A stretch of 64,000 bases of DNA from Labyrinthula sp. Ha. Lineage: Eukaryota > Sar > Bigyra > Labyrinthulida > Labyrinthulaceae. The notes below the pieces were generated by a model that was given only the letters and a program-made list of their open reading frames with translations, did no database searches and had not been told where the DNA came from. This document shows, piece after piece, positions 16,401 to 48,800 of this stretch. The position numbers and the translations under genes were made by a program. The stretch covers positions 744,001 through 808,000 of the forward strand of contig JAALGZ010000004.1 of assembly GCA_015227615.1 (NCBI GenBank), read 5' to 3'. How positions within the stretch are numbered: position 1 is the first letter of the stretch; every line of letters starts with the position of its first letter.

Positions 16401-17660
16401 TCTTCGCCTAATTGCACTTTTATGTGAGATGATATCATACTACCTATAGCTATTCTATTGATGATGAAAGCAGTTTGAGATGAGGTGTAGTCATTTGGAT
16501 ATAAAAAAAGAAATTAAAACTAATAGCAATATCTGCGAATAACTTCTTGAGGCTGTAGTCTGTAGGTTGCTTTCACATGATTCAAGGTCGTTGTCTATAA
16601 ATTTGGGAAGTATTAAGATTTTTAATGATCTCTGGACCTTCAAGCATTGATTACACCGTCGATTTAAAATAGCTTTCTCGGCAAGTAATAACTTTCTTAC
16701 AAAATACAGTTCTTAAGAACGCTTAGCTAGATTGTGATAATGACAAAACTTATAGTATTTTGAATGCGTATCCAGTGATATTAAATTGTGTTTATTCCAC
16801 TTAAATTCTTTTTCAATATATTCTACTAAATACTTTAATTCTTATTTTAGTTCTTTGTTTTTTATATAAGCGTTTGGCAATAGAATCTCAATCAACTTCG
16901 TAATAAACCTTAATTAAATTCTATTCCCTAGCATTAGAATAATGAGTTTTCATTACAGAACAATAGTCATGATTAAAAAGATCAAGGTAAAGGACTCAAA
17001 TTTGATACACATATGCATGAATTGAGTTATATTTAATGAAATGGTGGGAGATATGATTGAGTTCAAAGCGAATAAAATTAGACATCGACCACTATTACCT
17101 TTTTTTCGGAGCATATTTTAGTTGAGTTGGATTCTGAAATAAGTTATTCTTCGCGGTTTAAAAATTTGAAGAAAAAATGGTAATAAGTAACCAAATCGTA
17201 CTAAGACGCTGAAAAAATTAGATGTAATTTATCTATTAAGATTTCATACTGTTTTTTTTTCTCTGGTATTCTGTCTCATGAAAGTGAACATCATAGTTGC
17301 AATATATGACAGATTAAAATATTTGTATATTAAGCTGGTAAAGGTAAAATATTTAATTATTCTACCTATTTCCTTTTCTGAGTATTCTTTCCGTACTCCT
17401 TGGGGTAGCCACATAACAAGAAATTTGATGAACTGTATATGGCATAAACAAAAGGTCATGTCGTGCATTTTTTCTTATTATATTTTAAGATAATAGAAGT
17501 ATTATTTTGTTTTATATTAACTGAGAATATATTTTCATTAAACCTGTCAAAGATATGCTTTCACTTAAAGGTATCCAGGTTGATGGTCTCTGGCCACAAT
17601 AATTGCAACACGGGAAAGTTCCCAAAATTGTTTTCTTTTGCATCGAGAATCAAATTCAAA
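13471..17660. other. AT-rich gene desert with one domain-like fragment
   Basis: About 4.2 kb of very AT-rich DNA with stops in all frames. The only readable item is the short frame listed separately at 14111-14347. No tRNA or other RNA gene was recognised. The right end should contain the 5' region of the epimerase-like gene. Confidence 0.5.
14111..14347 (+). pseudogene. Short open frame with SRCR-like motif (gene fragment?)
   Basis: A 78-codon stop-free stretch ending in TAA at 14345-14347, with its only internal Met well inside. It ends WYGVIGYLKNGTWDKI followed by CKKLGF. The spacing NGTW...C..LGF is that of a scavenger receptor cysteine-rich domain (typically NGTWGTVC...VVCRQLGF), but the first cysteine of the usual pair is missing and nothing else of the domain is visible. 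It may be a gene relic, one exon of an undetected gene, or chance. Confidence 0.2.
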
Positions 17661-18569
17661 ATGGATACTTTTAAATTTGATCCCGCAGATAGTAACTCTC
17701 ACGATTGCGTTCGCCTAACAACCCCTGAAGGAGCATCTATCTCTATCTCACTTTTTGGTGCGACTATTTACTCTATTTTATCTTCTGATAATGAAGAACT
17801 GCTCTTTCTCTCAAAGAACTCAAAGAAGCAGCCTCCAAAGCCTATACGAGGCGGAATTCCCGTTGTTTTTCCTAAGTTTGGTGATGGGCTTGTGGAAACT
17901 GACCTTCCAAGTCATGGTTTTGCAAGAAGATGTGTTTGGAAGCTAAAGCATCATGAACTCAAAGAAGAAGAAAAACTTCTACAGTTCTCTCTCGAACTTA
18001 ACGATCAAATGTTGTTGGAACAGTTTCCAGCATATTCTGAAGCTTGGAAATATAAGTTCGAACTGACTTTAGAAGGTGCTTTGAGCTATGATGGAAAGAA
18101 GTTTATTAATGCGCTGAAAGTCAAGAACACTGGGAATGATTTCTTCGAGTTTCAAGCTTTGCTTCACACTTACTATTTATTAGACAACGTTGCTGCGACT
18201 GTTGTTAATGGTTTGGATGGTGTCGGCTATGTGGATAAAACCGATGGAAATAAAGAAAAAACGCAAATTAGAGGTCTAAAAATAGAAAAAGAAACTGATT
18301 GGATATTCTCGCCTGGTCTTATAGATAAAGTAGTTGAGATACAATCGGGTGCGAAGAACATTAAGTTAACAATAACAGTTCAGAATGGCGTCCCTGATTC
18401 TGGGGATGTGGTTGTTTGGAATCCGTACGCAGAGAAAGCTAAAGGCATGGGAGATTTTGGAGACGAAGAATACCACAATATGATCTGTGTTGAACCTGGA
18501 TATGTCAAGAAGAACGTTATTCTTGAGCCGCGAAGAACTTTTACTCTAAAACAAACCATAGAAGCATAA
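17661..18569 (+). CDS. Glucose-6-phosphate 1-epimerase-like protein (aldose 1-epimerase superfamily)
   Basis: A 302-residue protein. The motifs follow the family: RGGIPVVFPKFG, then LPSHGFARR, FQALLHTYY with the likely catalytic His169, VVVWNPYAEKAKGMGDF, and MICVEPGYV with the likely catalytic Glu278. These match YMR099C/YeaD-type enzymes, which interconvert the alpha and beta anomers of hexose-6-phosphates in the cytosol. I chose the ATG at 17661 because MDTFKFDPADSNSHD lines up with the start of the conserved domain in the paralogue at 30.4 kb (TKFDPLDSQSHD). An in-frame ATG at 17583 would add 26 residues, and the frame stays open upstream only from a GTG. No signal peptide or membrane segment is seen, unlike in the paralogue. 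Confidence 0.85.
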   Translation: MDTFKFDPADSNSHDCVRLTTPEGASISISLFGATIYSILSSDNEELLFLSKNSKKQPPKPIRGGIPVVFPKFGDGLVETDLPSHGFARRCVWKLKHHELKEEEKLLQFSLELNDQMLLEQFPAYSEAWKYKFELTLEGALSYDGKKFINALKVKNTGNDFFEFQALLHTYYLLDNVAATVVNGLDGVGYVDKTDGNKEKTQIRGLKIEKETDWIFSPGLIDKVVEIQSGAKNIKLTITVQNGVPDSGDVVVWNPYAEKAKGMGDFGDEEYHNMICVEPGYVKKNVILEPRRTFTLKQTIEA

Positions 18570-30364: not shown

Positions 30365-30436
30365 ATGGCCTTCACTCTTACAAATACTTGTACTTACGAA
30401 AATCACCAAAATCTGGTTCGCAAAATAATAGTATGA
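30365..30436 (+). promoter_or_regulatory. Possible upstream ORF overlapping the epimerase start (ATGA overlap)
   Basis: An ATG at 30365 opens a 23-codon frame whose TGA (30434-30436) overlaps the next ATG (30433-30435) as ATGA. If the mRNA leader includes it, ribosomes reaching the main start would have to re-initiate or scan past. Whether the transcript starts upstream of it is unknown. Confidence 0.3.
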
Positions 30437-31575
30437 AAGCGGGAAAACTTGTAGGTAGAATCGAGAGTAATCCTATGCGAGAAGTCGAAGAAATTGAAGT
30501 TGTTTCGATTCAGCAGAAGAACACTACTTCGCTCCCTCGCATGCTAATAATATTTCTGCTCGGGGTTGCGGTTTCTTCAGTAGCATATTTCTTCTACTTT
30601 AACGCCGATGATGATGATGCAGAAACTCATACCGGGACAACTGCTGAAGAGTCTTTGTTTGTTTCAGTAACCAAATTTGATCCGCTTGATTCCCAGTCTC
30701 ATGATCTACTTACGTTCAAAACTCCACTTGGAGCATCAATATCTTTAACTCTGTTTGGAGCAACCATTGTCTCAATCAAGAACTCTGACCAAAATGAAAA
30801 GCTGTACTTGTCGCCACTAACGAGCAAGTCAGGCACAAGTCCAATCAGAGGGGGAATCCCAGTAATTTTTCCAAAGTTTGGCAGTGGTTTAATCCCAACC
30901 GACCTCCCTGGTCACGGATTTGCTAGAAGAGTAATGTGGCATCTCAACTCTGCAGTGGTCAATGATAAAACTGAGGCGCTGGAACTCTCCCTCTATCTCA
31001 ACTCAACAATGCTAGCAGAACAATTTCCAAACTATTCTGAGGCTTGGCCATATTCTTTTTCTCTTATTCTAGAAGCTTCTTTATCTTTCAACGGACAAGT
31101 TTTTCAAAACAGCTTAACGGTTAACAACGATGGAACGGAGGACTTTGAGTTTCAAGCGCTACTGCATACTTACTACTTGGTTGACGATATCGCAGACGTA
31201 TCTATCACCGGGCTTGACGAGAGCACGTACATAGACAAAGTGGATGATTGGACCGTTAAAAAGATGAATGGAACTTTATATATTGAAGAAGAAGTAGATT
31301 ATATTTATTCACCAGAGCTACTTGATAAGGATGTGTTGGTTCAGTTGGGTGGAAGTGAAGCAGTGGTTACTGTGAGTGTCGAGAAGGAAGGGAAAGCAGT
31401 TGCTGGTGACGTTGTGGTATGGAATCCGTGGGCGGAGAGATCATTGAGGACATCAGATCTTGCAGCAAACAGTTACTTGAACTTTGTTGCTGTTGAACCT
31501 GGTTTCGTAGAAGAGAATGCAATCTTGGGAGCTGGACGAGCCTTTCAGTTAATACAAGAGATTTCTTTTGCTTAA
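30433..31575 (+). CDS. Membrane-anchored glucose-6-phosphate 1-epimerase-like protein
   Basis: A 380-residue paralogue of the protein at 17.7 kb. A polar N-terminus (1-35) is followed by one hydrophobic segment (about 37-56, MLIIFLLGVAVSSVAYFFYF) and an Asp-rich linker. The epimerase domain from about 78 carries RGGIPVIFPKFG, LPGHGFARR, FQALLHTYY with His245, VVVWNPWAERS and VAVEPGFV with Glu355. Both presumed catalytic residues are kept. The single hydrophobic segment suggests a type II signal anchor, so the enzyme domain may face the secretory lumen or cell surface. Its substrate may then differ from that of the cytosolic copy. The start at 30433 is the first ATG in frame; the frame is open further upstream only from TTG. 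The convergent neighbour ends 65 bp away. Confidence 0.85.
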   Translation: MKAGKLVGRIESNPMREVEEIEVVSIQQKNTTSLPRMLIIFLLGVAVSSVAYFFYFNADDDDAETHTGTTAEESLFVSVTKFDPLDSQSHDLLTFKTPLGASISLTLFGATIVSIKNSDQNEKLYLSPLTSKSGTSPIRGGIPVIFPKFGSGLIPTDLPGHGFARRVMWHLNSAVVNDKTEALELSLYLNSTMLAEQFPNYSEAWPYSFSLILEASLSFNGQVFQNSLTVNNDGTEDFEFQALLHTYYLVDDIADVSITGLDESTYIDKVDDWTVKKMNGTLYIEEEVDYIYSPELLDKDVLVQLGGSEAVVTVSVEKEGKAVAGDVVVWNPWAERSLRTSDLAANSYLNFVAVEPGFVEENAILGAGRAFQLIQEISFA

Positions 31576-35810: not shown

Positions 35811-36157
35811 TGTTATTAGAGTAATAGAAGTATCTTCCTCAAAGCTAGAACACATGATGCTCAAGTCACTCTACCATGACTTACAGGTGGATTCACAAAG
35901 TTTATTTTCAAGTGTTAACCTAGGGAATGGATTGTTGGAGAGGAGCAAGCTGAATTGCCAGAACGGAAAGTATATGACATACGGTTGTATATGATAAGAC
36001 TATATTCTTAATACTTTGAAGCAACCAACACAAATTTAATAAGCTGCAGGCGCACTTTTCCTTACGTAGAAAAAATTGGGTAAATGTTTTCATGGCATGT
36101 AGACAATCCATAAATCTAAGAACCCATTGGTGCTTTTTCTGTCTCTAAAATAATGTG
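35811..36157. other. Intergenic, 3' flank and insertion site of the young retroelement
   Basis: About 350 bp of AT-rich spacer with no gene. Its right end (ATGTG, 36153-36157) is repeated just after the far LTR and marks the target-site duplication. Confidence 0.6.
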
Positions 36158-36453
36158 TAGAACTATCTGGTATGAGCTTCAGACAGTTTGGCTGGTTCGA
36201 ACTTTCGAAGATACGACTTAACAGTTATCTCTCCTCTTGTGTATTGATATTCTCTGGCCTAGTTTCTTATAGTTAACTCTTATTCTGTTGGATTCTCTTT
36301 TTTTTTTACTTTTATTATTAAATTATTCCGTTGGATTGTTACACTGACCCTTTTGGTCATTCTGTGTACCCAATCATATCACTCTAACTACCCAATCATT
36401 TATATCCTATTCAATACTAATAACCAATAATGCAGAACTTCATAACGATACAT
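36158..36453 (-). repeat. Young element: 3' LTR (296 bp)
   Basis: Direct repeat of 45539-45834. A 12-nt purine run on the minus strand (36454-36465, plus-strand CCCCCTTCTCCC) touches its inner edge and is the expected polypurine tract. Confidence 0.9.
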
Positions 36454-37045
36454 CCCCCTTCTCCCACAAATGCGAGACTCCGTTCTGTCTAAGCACCGCC
36501 TGTACCCCAAGACTTCTCATATTTTCGTATAGGTCAGTCCTGGTCCCGACGTGCAGCCATCCTTTTTGTAGTCCGCTAATACTAGAAAATATCTCCGGCA
36601 AAACTGCATTCTCCCCCATTATCCACTTAATCTCCTCTTTCACCGCCAGTGGTTTTATTCCGTATTTTGCCCTATCAGCAAATATCACTTCTTGTTCCCT
36701 CAATACTTCCAACTCTATCGATCCTTCAACGTCGCGTCGCTTAAAGAAATATAATACTTCATGCGATCGCTGAAATATTTTTCCTAAAGCTCCTCTTACT
36801 TTTCCACGTGGCGTCATTTTTACCCATGTCCAACTATGAACGGGCTCATAATCCGCCTTGTCCATATATCGAAACGCCTGGCACAGCTTCCCCTGCGGAA
36901 TCCATACCGCCGTATACTGTGGTCTTACTTCTTTTATTCCGAAGTCCATCCAGTCTGCATTCCCGCCTCCGCCTAGATTCACTTCCGCGCTTTTCCAAGG
37001 CGGGTCGGCTAAAATCAGTTTTACTTCTGGCAACCCTGGCACTCC
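36440..37045 (-). mobile_element. Young element: MT-A70-family adenine-N6 methyltransferase domain
   Basis: The strand LPEVKLILADPPWKS holds the catalytic DPPW motif (about 36995-37006). It is followed by YTAVWIPQG, SWTWVKMTPRGKVRG, SHEVLYFFKRRD, then GIKPLAVKEEIKWIMGENAV and LQKGWLHVGTRTD. This is the full MT-A70 order: DPPW, aromatic strand, W-x-K, HE-LYF, KP helix, GW-x-x-G-x-R/E. The family transfers methyl groups from S-adenosylmethionine to N6 of adenine in RNA (METTL3/14) or DNA (METTL4, MTA1/AMT). Whether RNA or DNA is the target here is not visible. Its place after integrase and chromodomain is unusual. Confidence 0.8.
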
Positions 37046-37626
37046 CTGACTCCAGTCCATCTTATATGGATCAAGTGTATACCACACCTTCTCAGGTGGC
37101 GCTATACAACACTTCAGCACTACTTCGCTTTCTTCGAAAAAGATCTCAAATACTCGACCTACGCACTGTATCGCGGTAAGTTGTATTTTTCCATCATAAG
37201 ATATCAGATACCGCCACTTTGAATCCTGCTCGATTTGGAAGGGGATGTTCGTTAATGCCCGCGGCGTCCTGGTCGGCTCTTCGTGGCATTCATATCTTAT
37301 TCGAAAGCCATTTGCCTCCCATTCCGCTTCTTTATTTTCCTCAAAAGCGGCAGCCATCGTACTTACCATTTTCTCATATGTCGCTAATTTCCTGCTTAAC
37401 TCCGCCGCTTCCCTAACATAATTAGCAGCCCGCTTTCTATGCTTCCGCAAATCTGCCGCATATTTTAGCGCAAATTCCTTCGCTACTTCCTCATTCGAAA
37501 GTGCTAGCGCCTGCTCACAGTCAGAAAACCGCCTTACGCAGCGGAAATCCGCGCGCCTAATTCTTTCATTTGACTTTCGCGCTTTTTCAATATCCCAATG
37601 TTCTCCCCCTATCTCTTCAAGGTTCA

Positions 37627-37771
37627 GCCGCCCTAATTGCTGCTGGATATATCCTCGAATCATAGATGAACTTTTATGCGGGAGATATAAATGGTACTTC
37701 TCAAAGCAGTCGACACCAAATTTAAGCACCAGCTTTCTAATTTCCTGCTTTTCCGCTTTTGTCCATCCTTT
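37627..37771 (-). mobile_element. Young element: SANT/Myb-like segment
   Basis: A segment beginning GWTKAEKQEIRKLVLKFG and ending LPHKSSSMIRGYIQQQL has the helix and tryptophan spacing of SANT/Myb domains, which bind DNA or histone tails. It lies between the chromodomain and the methyltransferase, and the old element has an equivalent. A charged coiled-coil-like stretch follows (about 37370-37480). Confidence 0.5.
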
Positions 37772-37950
37772 TACCGCCGCCACAATATGTTGCTTGGTCG
37801 GTAATTTCGTTTGAGCTGCTGTTAAATAATCATGCCATTTCCGAAATCCTGGCATTCTCCTTATTATTCGATCAACACCATGTTCCGTTGTGATAAGCGC
37901 TTGCTTTGCTCTTTTTCGCAGTTTATCTTGGCTCGGTCTACGCGTTTTTG

Positions 37951-38128
37951 CCGACAAGTGTTCCGTCAGAATATTCTTCACATCCTCGTACATTGTTTGA
38001 ATAGGTTCCCAAGTGTTGTCTTCGTCACGAAAACCTCTCCATTTAACTTCTACTACATATTCGGTTAAATGAGGGTCGGATCTAACATCTCCGAAACCTG
38101 CTACTTCTAAATGTTTAAAGTTTCCGAC
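37951..38128 (-). mobile_element. Young element: chromodomain
   Basis: Segment with a VEVKWRGFRDEDNTWEPIQ core and a closing helix (EDVKNILTEHL), the standard chromodomain pattern including the aromatic residues that hold methyl-lysine. In chromoviruses this domain directs integration to heterochromatin. Confidence 0.8.
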
Positions 38129-38289
38129 ATAAACCTTTCTCAACGCCTCCGACGGTACAAACCCGCTCGGCTCATAAAGTATAGCCGGCTTCCATGCACT
38201 TCCGTCGTTTTTCCATCCAATGTTTTGATTCTGTAAACATTTCTCGAAACTACTTCTACAATTTGTGCCGGGCCAGACCACTCCAGCGC

Positions 38290-39330
38290 TAACTTATCGC
38301 GCTCTCTTGGAGTGCCTTTCGACGATACCAGGCACCAGTCCCCTTCATTATATTGAAGTAGCGCTGGATCAACCGCCGTCTTCTTTCTCCTATTGTTCAG
38401 TACTTTCTGAAATTCTACATACTTAGCGATTTTTCCTTCATAATCATCCAAGTGCTTTCTGAAAGCGGAACTCAATTTATATAGTATATCATCATCAATA
38501 CCGACCAACATCCTGGCGCCGCCTCGGATTCTTTCCACTACTGGCGGAAGACCCGCAGGTTCAATATACTGGCGCTCCGGATTTACATATAAAAATAATT
38601 CATACGCCGTCGGTGCATTTTTCCGACCGGGTATTCTCCGCGAAGGCACCGGTAACTCATTCATTGCACCTTGAATTTTATTCAATATTTTCGGCCACTC
38701 ATCCTCATTCAGCCGGTATTCGTTAACCAAACTCTTCAAGAAATTCAACACCTTTTTATTCACCACTTCAACTTCTCCGTTTGTCCAGCTCGCATAAGAT
38801 ACCGCGAAGCTTTGAGAAAAGCGAAGTTCCTTCCTAAGCACCGTCATTAACGAATTCGCAAAATGACTTCCGCGGTCCGTTACTAACGTAAAGTCTTTTT
38901 CCAATTTATAATTTGCCGCAAATCTATCAAGCGCTTCTACAACCGCCTGTGTATCCGGTGTTTTCGTATGCGTTAGCTGCGTAAATCTGCTAAAGGCATC
39001 TGTTAATACTAAAATATGCCCTATTCTATTTACGTACAGGAAGTCTGCAACTAAAGTTTCACGCGGCCGCCTGGCTCTCGTGACCAAGCTGTAGGTTGTT
39101 TTTATCGCCTTCGGGAGTCTGCGGCAGTGTATGCAGTTATCCCTGAATAAGCGGATTAATTCAACCATCTTCTTCCATGGGGTATCTCCTCTTAACGTAC
39201 GCTCCATGGCGGCGGGAATTCTCCATTCAAATTTAGCCGCCTCCGCCAAGTCCGCCTCAAGGGAACCGTGCTTATTTGCTAAATGTATGTGGACTAATTG
39301 CCGCTCCAAAAGTGAAGTCGGCAAAATAAT
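38290..39330 (-). mobile_element. Young element: integrase
   Basis: Integrase with an N-terminal zinc-binding H..H..C..C part (IHLANKH, then CIHCRRLP) and a DDE core: LVADFLYVNRIGHILVLTDA, then LVTDRGSHFANSL and SYASWTNGEVEVVN. The C-terminal part leads straight into the chromodomain region. The same core signatures occur in the old element at 10.7-11.8 kb. Confidence 0.85.
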
Positions 39331-40079
39331 CTTCCCCGACAACCTTTTTATTCTCGAGGTTCTAGTGATCAACTCTTTTCTCTGCTCATTAATAACTTCC
39401 GCTTCCGTCAGCGGCGCCCAATCGCCTTCAAAATATGGGTTGAATACTGATACCCTATATTTATCAAGTGACTTAAGCGACGCATATATCTTTTTATCCA
39501 TCTGACGTTTTGGTCTCAGGTGGTTGACTCTCACCATTGTGCTTCTTATCTTTGCAGTAGTGCCATCCTCATCCTCCGACGATGAATAAGCATCCGTCTC
39601 AATGTAGCGCTCTTTTTCTGTGTCGCTAATATCCGACGGAACTTCAGTCGGCCACGTCGCGAAATCCTCCGTCAGCTTTCTCCATTCTTCTTCAGAATAT
39701 TCCTTTTTAATTTGGCGCTCTATTTCTTTCATAAGATTCAGCGCACCTTCCTCTCGCAGCGGTTTCCGCATAATCCGCCTAGTAATTTGCCGACAACCTG
39801 TTACCGTCGGTTGCACAAAATACTTGGGCGTGATACTCATATTCAACCCTTCTCTCCATTTTCGTCTTTTTGGTTGCAATAAGTCGGGTGTCCAGTCTTC
39901 AAAATCTCTCTTGATTCTAAAGAATAGGTCCTCATCACCAAGTAGCGAATCATCTCTCTCGGTATATACGGATAAAGCATCAAGCACTGCTTCCTGAAGC
40001 CACTCTTTTATTCTTGCGTCAGTCTCCTGTCGGCATTTCTCCGACACTCTTCTCAGGCGCTTCATCGCGCGCGGCAGGA

Positions 40080-40638
40080 CGGGTATTTCTCTTTCCGCTT
40101 CCCGTGTCTGCACCCTTACCGTTCTTACGGCCATGCTTCCGCCATCGTCTGTCGGCGCCGCCCATCTCGTAAGCATGTCCGCAAAAATATTACTATCTCC
40201 GTCGACGTGATGGATGTCTACCAACACATGTTGCAAGATCACCATCCAGCGCTGTAGGCGGTTAAGATGTCCATGATTAATCTTTGACCCGCCTTGCAAT
40301 ATTGCTTTCAGGTTGAGGTGATCCGTGTATACTTGTACCGCTGTCGGATGAAATGGCAACAAGTATGAAAGTTTGTTGAACGTTCGGATTATAGGGTATA
40401 GCTCTTTATGACATATACCCCATACAAGTTGACTTGCGTCAAATTTCCCGCTAAAAAACATCATTGGATAAACTGTCTTTTTTAACAAATCCTTTCCGCG
40501 CTCCTCTTGACGCGCTTGGAATAGGATGGCGCTATGATATTTATCCGACGCATCGGTTACCAGAATTAAATCCATGCTCCGATCATAGTGTTGTAGGCGC
40601 GCCTTTGCGGCATCCGCCAATCTCTGCTTAAAGCGCAT
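40080..40638 (-). mobile_element. Young element: RNase H
   Basis: Ty3/gypsy-type RNase H. It begins with LILVTDASDKYHSAILFQ, continues through CHKELYPIIRTF and VYTDHLNLKAIL, and ends HHVDGDSNIFADMLTRW. The acidic catalytic residues of the fold are recognisable. Confidence 0.8.
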
Positions 40639-40662
40639 AAAAGTCGCTTCTAATTCTTCGTT

Positions 40663-42198
40663 TCACAAAATTCGCTTCTTCTCTTTTAAAAGCTTCTTCT
40701 TCTTCCCTTTCATTTCCGGGTAAAACAACATAATTTTGTCTCTAAGTTCCGCCATTTCGGGAACTGCTGTTGTCAACCATTGCGCCAAGTGTAAGAGCTT
40801 TGCCAACTCGTATACATACTCTGGCTCTGGGACAAGTAAAATCTTTTCGTAATACTTCTTCGAAAAATTCCATCCGCCATTCTGCAGAATCCTTCCGCAA
40901 TACTCGATACCCGTCGTAAATAATATTGATTTTGTCGGGCTAATTCTAACTTTCCACTTCCGCAAATTGCGCAAAACATCTTCCAATATTCTGATGTAGC
41001 GTTTAAAATCCTTCGCATGTATCAACGTATCGTCAATCCATTGAACGATTCCGTTGCCTTCTTTATTATAATTAGCCGCCGCAATATGATCCACCATGCG
41101 CTGGTGAAAAAATACTGGGGTGGAATGGTATCCCATTGGCGCAAATTGCAATTGAAATACGCCATAAGTTGTCATAAGGTTGAAATACTTCTTAGCGCGG
41201 TCCGTAATTGCTAATTGATCAAATCCGCTCACAACATCTAAACATCCATAAAACCGCGCCGGCGCCGTGTTGACTAATTGTGTTTCAAGTATGGGGAGTA
41301 TATTTACATCCCTATGCAATACCTTATTCACTGCAACTAAGTCCAACACCATGCGCCAAGTATTATTTTTCTTAGGGACAGCAAAGACAGCCGACCCATA
41401 AATTGCTTGTCGGATTTTCTTTGCCATACCCTTCTCAACCATTCCGTCCAATTTTTCCTTCACAAATTCCGCCTTTCCAGGCCCCAGCGGCCGTGGCGCG
41501 GGCATCTTGAATTCCACCCATTCTATTGGCACAACATCCATAGGCGGCAAAAGGCTAATCCCTATTTGTGACGTACTTGTTGCAAAAACATCTTCATATT
41601 TGAGGCATAGATCCATCAGCCGCTTGCGCTGGTCTTCATTAGCGTCGCCAGCGGCTTCTACCATTTTTGTTATCGCCTCGCGTATCTCAGCCTTTTCCGC
41701 CTCCGGTTTATAGAGCGCGTTTCCTTCGGGAAGCATTAATTGCTCTAAGTTGTCTTCGTCAACTACATCCTTATTTTGCTTTAGGTGTATCGTTTCTCCA
41801 AACGGTATACCTTTTGCATTCCCGTCGCGCAGACGTCTACTAAAATCAATCGACGCCGCGCGGATCGACGGAACGTCGGCAAGGACTTCCATTTTACCGC
41901 CCGTTAGTTTTCTAATCATAGCCGCCAAGCGCAGCCTAGGCAGCCTTAACCCCGTCAAAAATTGCACATTCTTTGACTTCTGGCGGTTAAGTTTCTGTGC
42001 CTTCAAATTTTTCGTAAAGACAAAATACGTTTTTACCGCCAGCACCCCTTCGGCGTCTTCATCCACAATCTTTACTATTTCAGCTAAAGCATATCCATAT
42101 TTCGTGAAGTTAGAAATTGAACCAAGTATTAAATTTAAGCTCAACCCAACTACGACGATATCATATACTCCAGAAAGCTGTCCAAGTTCCTCCGACAT
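40663..42198 (-). mobile_element. Young element: reverse transcriptase region
   Basis: Reverse transcriptase segments in order: AVPKKNNTWRMVLDLVAVN, then DVVSGFDQL, FAPMGYHSTPVFF and the catalytic QWIDD box (the usual YVDD/FIDD position), then GIEYCGRIL. The domain spans about 40860-41560. The upstream part is a linker with a LLPPMDVVPIEW-type entry common in this superfamily. Confidence 0.85.
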
Positions 42199-42288
42199 CA
42201 GCGCTCTTACAACTGCGGCGCTATCAGCAAAGCAACTTCGACAAACCTTCAGGCACGCGGGACCGCTTTCCGCCTCGCTGCCAACTTC

Positions 42289-42645
42289 CTACGCATTTTG
42301 GTGCGGCATCAATCCCGCCTCTTCCAGCGCGGGAGCTCCGATCAATAGTTCCTTCCATTTTCTATCTTCTACAAGGAACACCTTCATTCTGCGGAAGTCG
42401 CACTTCCAGATGCCGCCGATGCGCAATTCAAGATCGGTATAACCTACTTTAGTTATACGGAGATCCGTTGTTCCGTCAGCTAAGGTTATTCTCTCTTTGA
42501 CATCTTCTATAGCGTCCATCATCCACGCATGTTTGTGGAGTGAAGCGACACTCTCATCCGCTCCACTGTCCAGGATCGCGTCTGAAATGCGATCTCCTGA
42601 TCTGACATGGTGGATGGTTACGTCCTTTTTTTCCGCCCTTCTCAC
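42289..42645 (-). mobile_element. Young element: retropepsin-type protease
   Basis: Contains an AILDSGADESV segment, the D-S/T-G-A active site of retroviral-type aspartic proteases, followed by a hydrophobic strand pattern (LADGTTDLRITKVGYTDLEL). Position between gag and reverse transcriptase is as in Ty3/gypsy elements. Confidence 0.75.
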
Positions 42646-42653
42646 CGAAACAT

Positions 42654-45524
42654 TTATCCTTCTAGTCGGGTTACGTTTTTTATATTCGTCCCCGGTGCTG
42701 GCAACGCTAGAAATGGATCGCGCTGCTTCGGCTTCCTATCTTCATTTCTTTCATAGCGCTTATTCTCATAGCCGCCCCTGTTTCTATGCGGGAAGTACCT
42801 TCCTCGATTCGTACTTCGTCTATATCCGAGGGGGCTGGGGGATCGAGACTTGCGGCGGTAATATTTGTTGCCGCTTCTACCTCTTTCCTTATCAGAAGAT
42901 ATCGATTGTCTTCTCTTCCTTCCGCTTCGATGCGCCTTCTGTTGAGTCCTTCTTACTTCGGACTCGCGCGGCGCCGTGACGGTCGGTTCGGGCGGCGATA
43001 GGTCTACTTCTTCCGTGGTGTCCATTCTCCGCTCATAGACTGACTTAATAAGGTCTCTAAATTTATTAAGCGAGTCGCCGAACTTTGACTTTGGCGCATC
43101 TAGCTTCACTTTAAGGCGGGCATCCCTCATTTGCAACTCCACCGGAAGCCGCTTATTCAGCGCTTTTAATACTTCAAATTTTTGCGCGTTCTCCTTAAGC
43201 TGCTTCCATTTGATACACCCCGTAGCGCTGCTCATGTAAGTATTCAGGCGCTCCAGGAACGGGCCTTCACTCGGCCATGCGACTTTTTCCGCAATAGTGC
43301 GGAGCGTATCTTCTCCTTCATATGCTTCGTGCTCCGACATGTACTTTCTCAAATATTCAACAAGCCCTTCCTCTGTTACGCCTGAGCTGGAAAGACTCTG
43401 TTTGATCTCTGGGTCGACATGAATCCAGAGGTTTGGCTCTTTTTCTCCGCCGTGTACATCTAGGTATGCGTCGCGCATATCTAACATGGCGCGGATATCC
43501 TTTACCTTTAGCGCTTTCAAAGTTCTGAATTTACCGCCGTAGGATCTCCACGCTCGATCGCGCCGCGCATCCTCCGCTCTTTGCCTTTGGATTTCAGCTA
43601 TTTCATCCGTATCCTTGGGCCTCTTTAGCGCTTGAGCGGTTACTTCCGTCAACTTCGCTAGTAGCGATTCCATTCCGCCCATTTTTGCCGACAGCGTGAA
43701 GACACTCTCTTGTGTTGCTTCCGCCAGCGACCTCGTTTCCGCAAAGTCGGAAAGGGTTCTTCCGTGAGCCGGGGTTGACTTAGGCGTTGGCGGTGTTTGA
43801 GGAGTAGGTCCAAAGGCGCTTTCTTGTTCGATAGCCGACCTTTGAAGTTCTCTTACCTTTTCTACCTCCGCGCGGTAAAGACTTTTCATCTCCTTCAACT
43901 CTTTAGCCATCCTCTTAATTTCCGCCTTATTCTTCTTCCGTTGCTCATCCACGACCTTTTTCATGATCGTGGAATTACGGTCTCTAAGTACCGACACCGC
44001 CGCCAACGATTGCGCCTTGATTCTTTCATTCGCTGTCGTTAACGTATCGATGCGTTTTTGCAACCTATTTTCCGCATCCGTCCTAGTATGCTCCGAAGGT
44101 CTCACTTTGCGTATTGGCGTTCTCATCACTAACCCCGCGGCGGGTTCCGCCTTCATTACCCACCTAAAGGGCGTGATCCGTCTTGGGCGGTCCGGGTCAT
44201 CATTAGCCGACAAGTTAGGCTTCGGCAGATTTCCTCTTACAGCTGCCATACCCCTATTCGCCATGAATTGTACGGCCGTCGTAATTAGGCCTTTCGATGA
44301 GCGGAAAAACCACGTCGGTGTATTATGTTTAAGAACCTGCGGCGGGGTCTTTTTCCGATGCGCCACCAGTTGCGCAAAAGACATTTCCTGGTTTTCTCTA
44401 AAGTTCGGCACCGCCGCCAACATATGCGCTACTCTGTCGCTTATCGGTACTCCGTCGAGTTCCTTTTCCGACAACGCGGTCATTAACAATATCGGATATC
44501 TCGAGGATTCGTGTATGTTCTTTTCCTCGAGCAACTCTACCGCCGTCTTTCCTCTCATTCGGCTTTGTATTTCACGAAGGTCTTCTTCGCAAACTACATA
44601 CTTTTTTGGGGTAAACCAACGTGGTTCTTTCAAATAAAACTCGCATTGCTTTCGAGTAAGTCTCTTTTTCTTTTGAGTCTTTGGCGGCGCCCTCTCTTTT
44701 GCGCCCTTCTTTTTTGCCGATGACGGAGAAGTTAAATTTACCGCCTCCGCTCCAGCTTTCTTATTCCGACCTTCTGCAATTAACCGCTCAAGGGTTGTCG
44801 GCTCGTCAATATTAAGCGCCTCGTGACTTGAGGCGGCTTCATCCTCCAGCACTGCGGTCGGCGATGTCGGCTCGACCTCCTTAGCCGCTGTCATAGGTTG
44901 CGTCAAGTCTAGAATATCCGCTTCCTTTTCGGCGGCGGCGAATATTCTTTCCGCCCGGTCTTCTGTGGCGGCGACTTCATTTTCCGCTTCATCTTCCGCC
45001 CCGGCGGCTAAATTTTCCGCCTCATCTTCTTCCCCAGCGGCTAAATTTTCCGCCTCACTTTCCGATTCGGATAAAAGCATCGCCTCGGCCACCGCGTCTG
45101 GCTTGGGGTCATCCTGACCCGGCGCTCCTGTCGCGACACGGTTAGCCTTGCTTTTTGTCTTCTCAGCCGCCGCTACCTGGGCGGCTTCTTGGCTGTTATT
45201 TTCCGCCTCAGTTTCCGCTCGGGCGGCTAAATTCTCCGCCCTGCTATTCTCCGCCGAGTCTTCCGCCTCGTCAGCTGACGGTAAATTAAGCGACTTGCGC
45301 AGTGCGGCGCGCTTCTCGTCGCTTAATTCGTCAGTCCGACCTTCATCGGCTTCAGCACTTTCACCTGACGATGAGTCGCTCCCGAAGAGCTCCTCATCTT
45401 CTTCTTCTTGTTCTCTCCTCTTCTTCTCGTCTTCCATCTCTTCTAACTTCTTCTTCCTTTCTCTCTGCATAGCCCTCTCTTCTCTCGACAGTGGCATCTC
45501 AATCGTATTTCGTCTTGCCTCCAC
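42654..45524 (-). mobile_element. Young element: gag-like region with acidic repeats and Arg/Ser-rich tail
   Basis: A long gag-like region. The N-terminal third is very acidic and Ala-rich, with tandem AENLAAG-type units (about 44990-45260). The middle has a Lys-rich, helical part, then a capsid-like helical region. The end is an Arg/Ser/Gly/Tyr-rich basic stretch (about 42680-42930) that probably binds RNA in place of a zinc knuckle; no CCHC motif was found. It is larger than most Ty3/gypsy gag proteins. Confidence 0.7.
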
Positions 45525-45538
45525 AATTGTTTAAACAA

Positions 45539-45834
45539 TAGAACTATCTGGTATGAGCTTCAGACAGTTTGGCTGGTTCGAACTTTCGAAGATACGACTT
45601 AACAGTTATCTCTCCTCTTGTGTATTGATATTCTCTGACCTAGTTTCTTATAGTTAACTCTTATTCTGTTGGATTCTCTTTTTTTTTGACTTTTATTATT
45701 AAATTATTCCGTTGGATTGTTACACTGACCCTTTTGGTCATTCTGTGTACCCAATCATATCACTCTAACTACCCAATCATTTATATCCTATTCAATACTA
45801 ATAACCAATAATGCAGAACTTGATAACGATACAT
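45539..45834 (-). repeat. Young element: 5' LTR (296 bp)
   Basis: Same sequence as 36158-36453 except for three positions. It starts TAGAAC and ends GATACAT on the plus strand rather than with the usual TG...CA. The host flank on the right begins GTGTAAG. Confidence 0.9.
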
Positions 45835-48800
45835 GTGTAAGAAACCAGTTGAAGATTCGCTTGATGAAAGAAAGCAGGGAGAGAATAACCAAGAGCTATC
45901 TACTTTTCCGACTCTAGGCTGACTGTTGAAGTCTATCAGGTCTAAACTTAATTCCATCTTAGAGCTTATATACTCAAGTTGCTTGATTCGCTTACAGAGA
46001 TATTCCTTTGCTAGAATAGTCCTTAGTAGTACATGATTGGCTGGCTTAAAGTCAACCAATTATATATTGCAGTTTACAATCCTAAGTCATGATTTGTACT
46101 AGCACTTATTAATGCTTTTCTTTCTTGGCTATATCTCTACTTGCGGTCTTGCAATGTACTCAGGCTCTGAGCGGTATTGGTTTTCTATCTCTAAGGTAGT
46201 TAGTTATTGTTTGTGAGATGCAATAAGACTCATGGGAATTCATGGCTGTGTTATTATTCCCTAACCTTAAAAAATTGTCCAAGAATTTCCATGGTGGCCA
46301 AGCTCTCTAGATGCTATATGGTGCCACTACTATTCATATCCATGATCCTGGAGGTGCCAGAAGAATGGTCCCTTAAAGTTTCTATTCCTGCATAACTTAA
46401 AATTCATTATTACAAGAGCAGCTTCAATGACATATAATAAGTCTTAGAGATTTACTCTTAGCAAAGATGTGCTCTCTTCTGGAGATCTTTTTGCACCCCC
46501 ATACAGCAAAAGGATGAAGTCAAATAGTATGTAGAGCATCAGTGAGCCCTATATGTTAGCAAAATATATTTGACCCATTTAATTCAAAACAGTATTCCTC
46601 GCGCGTCCCATTCAACATGGGGTTTTGTTCACATTCTTCAGTTAAGCCATTTCTTTTTCATGAAAACAAACGAAGCGAAACTGAAGCACTAAGACTCAAT
46701 AATAATAAGAGACTTTCTTTAAGTAGCTTTCAAATTTTTTAGGCCTCTACCGATTTAGGAGTGTTATTTAAGGAAACAGTATCAAAGTTCAAACCACATT
46801 ATCAAAATTCTTGCGTTTTTTTATTTTTGTTTTTCAGTTTGATATTCCTCAATTGAGACTTGAGTTTTTCTTATGAATCATAATTAGGCATGAGATTCAA
46901 AAAGAATTTTCAATAATTAGTTGATAAGTATTTGTACTCTGATTATCAATAAAGTAATTGGACTTTTGATTTTATCAAATGATGCTGATTTTCTTTTGAT
47001 TATCAACTGATTATCAATAATCAATTATAATGGTTGAAAAATTACCAAAATCAATCAACCAGAAAAATATAAGCAAAATTTTGCATTGATAGCTTATCAA
47101 AGAATAAAAATTGATCCCTAAGCACAATACCTCAAATCTTATTTTCGCCACATGGCCAAGCGACAGATCAGCCTGACACTTTATACTACTCTTGCGGCTT
47201 ATTAAAACCAAGACAAATGGACTATATGACACAGGAATATTCAGGGAATTGATGGCATCAGAAACATATTTCACGGAAATAATCATTGCCTCCGATGTTC
47301 TCATTGGATTAAAGCATTTAAATGGAAAATCTAGTGGTCTAGATGGCCAGAACCTCAAGTGGTATGCATGAGAATATCAAGACTCACTCAAAGTGGTTGG
47401 GAACACCTCAACAGCACACCAAGTAAATTTCAAATCCTCAAAGCTCGCTTGATATATCATGTTACTAGTAAATAGTACCCCGATCCCGAAACATCGTATG
47501 AAGGATCTACATCTGCATCTATTATCCAAATAGTTCATGCTATCCTAAACTCTGCTGGTACTGAATAGATGTGGATACCCTAGCGTAATGAGCTAAAAAA
47601 CTCGAATCGATGGAGCCTTTCTGGATTTCAAAGAAAAAGAACAGCATTAACTCTACCTGCTTAGCAAACGAGAATTATGGCTACATACTTTTAGAATGGA
47701 AGACATTTTTATCAAGAAACATTTAATGATCATGAGATTACATACTTAATTTTGTCTAATGAACAACAAGGCAAAATTCGAGGAAATGTATGTATGAGAG
47801 GCTACTCGACCACCCCGTATGAATGCGCCGCTTAATATAGACAATATAAACAGTTAACGTTGCAGTTATTCTACCTATAATTATTTTGGGAAATTTTAGT
47901 TAGGCAATAAGGTATCCAATGACAATTTCGAAAGAACGCGGCTTTGCCGGTAGGCAACTTAGGGTTCTCGGCTGGTAAAAAAACTTGAGTCCTAAGCCAA
48001 TCACCAAGCCATGAATCCAGTATTCATGATAGAATTAAAGTCTTCCTCAATTCAAGAAAAGTTAACACAAAAAAATACAGTTATCATCTATTGCAGGGTT
48101 CATTCTTTTAGCCTACTATGAGACCTCTTTCAAGTAGATTGAAAACAAGGGGTTTCTGAGCAAGAAAGTAAGTCAATCAATGGTAAAATAGCAGATTAAA
48201 CTGCTGTTAAATTTTAAGTCCGTTCATTTTCAAGTTTTCCCATAATCAACTTACTAAGCACAATACCCGTAGTTTTCATCGGCTAAACTGCAGACGGGCA
48301 ACATACCACATACATAAAGGGTACAATAAGACGAGTTTTAGTATAGCTCTATTGTCAATTATGTTTCTTGAACACATAAATCCTGGAAGAATTTTGTACC
48401 AGAAGTGCGGAGTAAGATTTAAATACTCATCCAATAGGATACTGATCACGGAAAGGTGCAGATAAATGCTACAATTTGCGAAATTTTGACTGTTTGCTAG
48501 CAGCGTTTATGTCTTTAATTCGAGTTGTAGCATACTTGCAAATGATTTTTAATATTCTTAGATCTTTGCAAGGGCTATAGACTAATTATTAACCTTTGAA
48601 AAGCAATAAACCAACATCTTGTTAGTAGATAAGTGTGTCTTTATAGCTTAAAATACCCTAACCACAAATATTAAACCCTTTTAAAAATAATAGTATTACC
48701 TAACAGAGTATACAAGAAACACAGGATCGTGCTACATGACTAATTCGTTGTAGTAATTCAATTGCAGATAATCTAGTTGGGCCCTATGTATAGAGATTTT

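Follow-up and report, generated by a model that had tools for sequence, protein, structure and literature searches.

Numerous and diverse long terminal repeat (LTR) retrotransposons of Ty3/gypsy gene order in the genome of Labyrinthula sp. Ha carry, behind integrase and a chromodomain, a Myb-like segment and an MT-A70 domain that are best read as relatives of p1 and AMT1, two subunits of a writer of N6-methyladenine in DNA (6mA), joined in one chain. We propose, at a probability of roughly 0.6, that families with preserved motifs use this module to methylate adenine in element DNA as a permissive mark.

The element in the window, by which we mean the whole stretch of 64,000 nucleotides analysed, occupies positions 36159-45833 on the minus strand, and its pol region closes with the chromodomain, the Myb-like domain and MT-A70 (Table 1). 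The original prediction of a retroelement of Ty3/gypsy gene order in which a chromodomain, a Myb/SANT-like segment and MT-A70 follow one another is thus confirmed by Pfam matches, with both the Chromo and the MT-A70 models recognizing their segments. Alignment of its two LTRs shows 3 differences over 296 positions (direct repeat 36158-36453), and the element combines LTRs and a target-site duplication with the protease, reverse transcriptase, RNase H, integrase order of the Ty3/gypsy group (Metaviridae), the protease being recognized from its motif alone. Judged by its best PDB matches, which are Pr125Pol reverse transcriptase chains (65 bits) and the Ty3 reverse transcriptase (40 bits), the reverse transcriptase is only a distant relative of the foamy-virus and Ty3 enzymes. 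The LTR ends in CT instead of CA, and by eye there is no obvious tRNA-type primer site past the 5' LTR. Elsewhere in the window, single-frame genes include two aldose-1-epimerase-like genes (17463-18569 and 30388-31575), a gamma-glutamyltranspeptidase, NMD3, an IMS-family DNA polymerase and a sugar transporter; an Rfam search of the window gave no match, and PADLOC returned generic type II methyltransferase matches only.

Table 1. Coordinates of the retrotransposon features in the window.
Feature	Position	Strand	Remarks
5' LTR	45540..45833	-	begins TG, ends CT; terminal 21-mer occurs 2 times in the window, expected 0.00
3' LTR	36159..36452	-	MT-A70 frame terminates 13 bases into the LTR
Target-site duplication TGTGT, right copy	45834..45838		read by eye from the flanks
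Target-site duplication TGTGT, left copy	36154..36158		read by eye from the flanks
Gag-like open frame, 958 aa	42654..45530	-	named from position alone; no Pfam match at E<=1
Aspartyl-protease-like frame	42289..42735	-	DSGA motif; Pfam RVP E 0.23, 12.2 bits (cut-off 20.7); closes at in-frame TAG
Reverse transcriptase	40663..42288	-	RVT_1 3.9e-16; closes at in-frame TGA
RNase H and integrase	38140..40662	-	RT_RNaseH 2.2e-18; rve 1.2e-9
C-terminal frame: chromodomain, p1-like Myb, linker, MT-A70	36440..38293	-	out of the integrase's frame in the window copy
Chromodomain core, protein residues 78-103	37982..38059	-	Pfam Chromo 5.8e-6
p1-like Myb domain and tail, about residues 174-250	37541..37771	-	alignment; profile top match p1 of the Tetrahymena MTA1 complex, 75 bits, E 3.4e-20
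MT-A70 domain, residues 424-583	36542..37021	-	Pfam 2e-8; fold match AMT1/METTL3; SAM pocket degenerate
Polypurine tract GGGAGAAGGGGGA, adjoining the 3' LTR	36453..36465	-	read by eye

The module is widespread in the genome (50.8 Mb in 153 contigs), which was searched with introns ignored, and all counts given here are lower bounds. Among Pfam MT-A70 matches, all of the best 150 of 354 candidates lie over the Pfam cut-off. The window's C-terminal protein, used as a query against its own genome, gave 72 matches, the next best copy being 90% identical; 57 of the 72 extend into MT-A70. When the intervals of two own-genome searches are merged, at least 204 distinct MT-A70 places result, one of them a host gene and many of them fragments, so the domain is not confined to the window copy; additions from two further own-genome searches raise the number to 237. 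The places are linked to element genes in a directional manner. Among the best 150 of 549 integrase candidates, 80 have MT-A70 at 0.5-4.5 kb downstream on the same strand, as against none upstream and one on the other strand, with 70 of the 150 having no MT-A70 in the lists. Likewise, 119 of the 150 p1-like matches listed are followed by MT-A70 at 0.6-1.5 kb downstream on the same strand (one upstream, none on the other strand), while 31 of the 150 have none in the lists used.

Five full elements (L009-L013) encode MT-A70 at the end of long open frames of 1797, 2333, 2107, 2660 and 2180 aa, respectively. In each of the five, reverse transcriptase, RNase H and MT-A70 exceed their Pfam cut-offs; an integrase match is also listed in each, passing its cut-off in two (L010, L011), and Chromo reaches E 0.01 or better in four and its cut-off in two (L011, L013). 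In L012 no Chromo match is listed and Myb lies over its cut-off. LTR identity is 99% in four of these elements and 96-97% in L009, and because the pairs are 96-99% identical we regard the insertions as recent. The same domain order recurs in P0011, a 3045-aa frame on a 9933-base contig from another source: reverse transcriptase, RNase H and MT-A70 lie over Pfam cut-offs, Chromo scores 24.9 bits against a cut-off of 25.1, integrase and a zinc knuckle fall under theirs, a DSG protease motif is present, and the p1-like domain is recognized by alignment. From chromodomain to MT-A70, P0011 matches this genome at 34% at best, over 531 of 533 residues, and it probably comes from a second species; a pattern scan of viral contigs for relatives of P0011 found none. 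In the window copy the reading frames are broken: one in-frame stop, TAG, follows the protease, a second, TGA, follows the reverse transcriptase, and integrase and chromodomain are read in different frames. Breaks of this kind might be expected if a host gene had come to lie beside an element by chance or through an assembly error. Such an artefact is, however, scarcely credible in view of the open frames of the five elements, the 80 linked integrase matches and the identical order in P0011. Two other copies of the window family (L018, L020) stay open from the integrase part through MT-A70, over 1075 and 1078 aa in a single frame.

The position of the protease varies. In L009, L010 and L012 the sole clear motif, DSGA, is found after the p1-like domain and ahead of MT-A70, and in these families the protease seems, from its motif, to have been relocated beside the methyltransferase. 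The motif stands ahead of the reverse transcriptase in L011, L013, P0011 and the window element; L012 also has an RVP match of E 0.0018, under the cut-off.

By sequence scores we favour an AMT1-like identity for the MT-A70 domain of the elements. A profile of seven element domains (P0011, the five full elements and the window element) scored 231 bits against Tetrahymena MTA1 (AMT1) in the PDB, compared with 164 for METTL3, 87 for METTL14, 60 for 7cv6, which we take to be METTL4, and 53 for MTA9. Tetrahymena MTA1 was the top-scoring relative for 48 of 54 distinct MT-A70 sequences, host AMT1 and P0011 included; a bacterial MT-A70 was best for the other six, all window-family pieces below 32 bits (among 26 bacterial or metagenomic proteins), and METTL3 or METTL14 was the closest relative in none of the 54. 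Trees had been proposed along with the original prediction as a means of placing the domain. Domains covering less than 70% of the model were dropped, which retained 79 of 105 matches; the first tree held 60 rows and the second 49, after removal of near-copies and eight bacterial rows and addition of five bridge rows. The bacterial rows stand apart as one clade (support 96/88 and 100/100), but the backbone does not separate AMT1, METTL3 and the element domains from one another, with the window family on a long branch apart from both AMT1 and METTL3. One family (L001-L007, L009, L036, L037) reads DPAW in place of DPPW, a variant shared by certain relatives of bacterial or metagenomic origin (P0016, P0022, P0023, P0027).

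The Myb-like segment points to the same complex. A profile of the seven element Myb domains, searched against the PDB, found p1 of the Tetrahymena complex as its best match over profile columns 12-85, the tail past the Myb fold included, ahead of SNAPC4 (61 bits) and p2 (24 bits). By eye, the similarity between element and host p1 continues beyond the Myb domain into an RKNG..VN.G motif. The SANT/Myb-like assignment made from the sequence alone is upheld by this profile match, although the Pfam Myb model itself stays under its cut-off in the window (E 0.046). Excerpts of PMC12695648 describe p1 and p2 as found only alongside AMT1, AMT6/7 as the non-catalytic partner and 6mA as accompanying permissive chromatin. 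In ciliates the complex methylates double-stranded DNA, which MTA9 and p1 accommodate, and assays of single enzymes had failed (PMC11065753, excerpt); fungal Mta1, Mta9 and the Myb-like P1 interact (PMC13297926, excerpt).

The host has genes of its own for these subunits. Its AMT1 gene (C91:220677; L035 3494-4474) is a single open frame of 327 aa that matches a segment of Tetrahymena MTA1 at 55% identity, and the 5 kb around it hold one other frame of at least 150 aa, encoding a 369-aa protein. Two p1-like host genes lie without MT-A70 beside them, at C1:1284470 (47%) and C100:136087 (44%). The former (L058 1333-2484) ends in an Agenet domain over the cut-off and a Tudor-type domain under it, a histone-reader type of end that recalls the PHD carried by p1 of ichthyosporeans (PMC12695648, excerpt). 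A METTL3 query, scored over the best candidates and with introns ignored, limits that could hide a gene, returned nothing above host AMT1, at 44%, and a host METTL3 may be absent.

Because the Myb domain is closest to p1 and MT-A70 is AMT1-like, we favour 6mA in DNA over m6A in RNA as the product of a catalytic module. The original prediction had left the two open; the notion of an adenine writer is kept, pointing to DNA, and its RNA branch is disfavoured. On that branch, MT-A70 would write m6A on the element's own RNA and so affect its stability, packaging or masking. METTL3 and METTL14 do belong to MT-A70, and an orchid Gypsy element encodes an m6A eraser that acts on RNA in vitro (PMC9289625, excerpt), so this RNA mark may be relevant to certain retrotransposons. 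We nevertheless consider an RNA writer improbable: METTL3 and METTL14 are the closest relatives of none of the 54 sequences, the p1 fusion indicates a DNA pathway, and the host METTL3 search yielded, among the best candidates scored, no match above AMT1.

Whether the domain could act as an enzyme differs between families. We compared the residues that contact SAM and the acceptor, in METTL3 numbering (PMC5023411, excerpt). In the window family, the seven distinct core copies retain K513 (7/7) and DPPW (6/7); all seven, however, have a gap at Y406 and S, N or K at R536, and the equivalent of N539 is also lost in all seven. The MT-A70 domain in the window had been described as complete-looking, which does not hold for an interrupted copy of a family lacking these residues, DPPW notwithstanding. 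In the other element families, by contrast, 24 of 25 rows have D395, all 25 have Y or F at position 406, 24 have K513 and all 25 have R536, many rows being near-copies. Even these better-preserved families are not certain enzymes, since the METTL3 ribose contact N549 is kept in just 4 of the 24 rows from these families that have no gap at that position. A degenerate SAM/acceptor site within a conserved fold, as found in the window family, is also a feature of METTL14/AMT7-like subunits. A first predicted structure of 475 aa, made from 7 sequences, reached a pLDDT of 41 and was left out.

Despite its lost residues, the window-family MT-A70 is under purifying selection, with a median dN/dS of 0.16, next to 0.155 and 0.07 in two other families. 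These values rest on 18 of 21 usable pairs in the window family, 16 of 28 in the L009 family and 6 of 6 in the L043 family, with saturated or tiny dS omitted; the L010, L041 and L012 families offered zero usable pairs. Within the window family, MT-A70 (0.13-0.22) is less constrained than integrase (0.05-0.08), the pair L016/window-C being left out of this comparison because a missed anchor had placed it in a wrong region.

Residue loss under sustained constraint is what would be expected if the module were a targeting device rather than an enzyme, in which the chromodomain and the p1-like Myb domain, together with an MT-A70 fold that binds DNA, would guide integration or anchor Pol on host chromatin. 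The reference lists of PMC12477816 and PMC9289625 (excerpts) include a title on chromodomains directing integration. As an account of all the families this is unlikely, though the strongest of the alternatives, as the other families retain D395, Y/F406, K513 and R536, which a tether would not need. For the window family itself, we favour a role as tether or non-catalytic partner: it is probably a derived branch, and an AMT7/METTL14-like partner without catalysis, or a DNA-binding module, is more likely there than an active enzyme. The resemblance of this family to a pseudo-enzyme, together with the existence of host AMT1 and p1-like genes, would also suit a module that interferes with the host AMT1 complex, for instance through competition over its partner subunits or over sites on DNA, and thereby shifts 6mA at host genes or silenced copies. 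Such interference would not require catalysis, in families whose motifs are nonetheless largely intact, and we judge it quite improbable.

From the architecture, copy number, linkage, constraint and nearest relatives observed, we infer a self-marking function for the families with preserved motifs. Pol would have acquired, behind integrase and chromodomain, relatives of the DNA-binding Myb subunit p1 and of the catalytic subunit AMT1. We envision that the chromodomain and p1 would keep Pol at the insertion site or on the new copy, and that MT-A70, alone or with partner subunits, would methylate adenines in element DNA at or after integration, probably at ApT by analogy with AMT1. New copies would thereby carry a mark tied, in eukaryotes with AMT1, to permissive, transcribed chromatin. 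No p2 or AMT7 module was noticed in the elements read, in the course of reading rather than by a dedicated search; as neither was seen and single-enzyme assays failed (PMC11065753, excerpt), one chain is perhaps insufficient. An extension of the self-marking proposal, tentative and rather unlikely at present, is that the element population forms an autonomous multi-part 6mA writer beside that of the host, in which AMT1-like families catalyse, the window family serves as an AMT7/METTL14-like partner, and p1 and the chromodomain aim the activity at element copies. The pairing of catalytic and degenerate families is worth testing because ciliate AMT1 requires a non-catalytic partner.

Among known systems, the AMT1/MTA1-AMT7/MTA9-p1-p2 complex of ciliates and early fungi is the nearest, as its AMT1 and p1 subunits are the closest relatives of the element MT-A70 and Myb domains. 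Unlike that complex, the elements fuse two of the subunits behind integrase and chromodomain and copy them as a transposon, show no p2 or AMT7 equivalents and, in the window family, lack key SAM residues. Capture of a methyltransferase by retrotransposons is already known as a kind. To our knowledge, the captured DNA methyltransferases of known retrotransposons are all cytosine or Dam-type enzymes. A report of MT-A70 in a retrotransposon, with or without p1, did not appear in the titles, abstract openings and excerpts of the literature searched, one review beyond that search perhaps mentioning such a case.

One such precedent is a Gypsy element of Klebsormidium nitens with Dnmt3 in Pol, which shares with the present elements a DNA methyltransferase within the Pol frame under purifying selection (Ka/Ks <0.2 there); further DNMTs occur in LINE and DIRS elements of Symbiodinium (all PMC5890265, excerpt). 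The Klebsormidium and Symbiodinium enzymes are, however, cytosine C5 methyltransferases of another fold, and the word chromodomain is absent from that paper, whose excerpt reports no DNA-binding partner subunit. DIRS elements with Dam-like adenine methyltransferases (PMC5890265, excerpt) share the presence of an adenine methyltransferase in a retrotransposon, but these are tyrosine-recombinase elements whose enzyme is not MT-A70 and which have no p1. The orchid elements of the Ty3/Gypsy group that encode an AlkB m6A demethylase (PMC9289625, excerpt) likewise join Ty3/Gypsy to an N6-methyladenine enzyme; theirs is an eraser acting on RNA from a separate ORF, not a writer. Ectocarpus has chromodomain Gypsy elements outside the chromoviruses, with the chromodomain C-terminal to integrase as here; these are without a methyltransferase, and an N4C/N6A methyltransferase sits instead with ParB in a Sola1 DNA transposon there (PMC12477816, excerpt).

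AMT1 has been traced to LECA, and the excerpts of PMC12695648 portray comparatively little change among MT-A70 families and a 6mA-AMT1 pathway that evolves slowly and in concert, with endogenous genes as its targets. The elements described here would be a counter-example to this static picture of a pathway aimed at endogenous genes, and they suggest that parasites of the genome may place chemical marks on DNA to their own advantage. Since 6mA accompanies permissive chromatin, they would offer a direct test of whether a mobile element can write an 'active' mark on itself, the mirror of silencing by 5mC.
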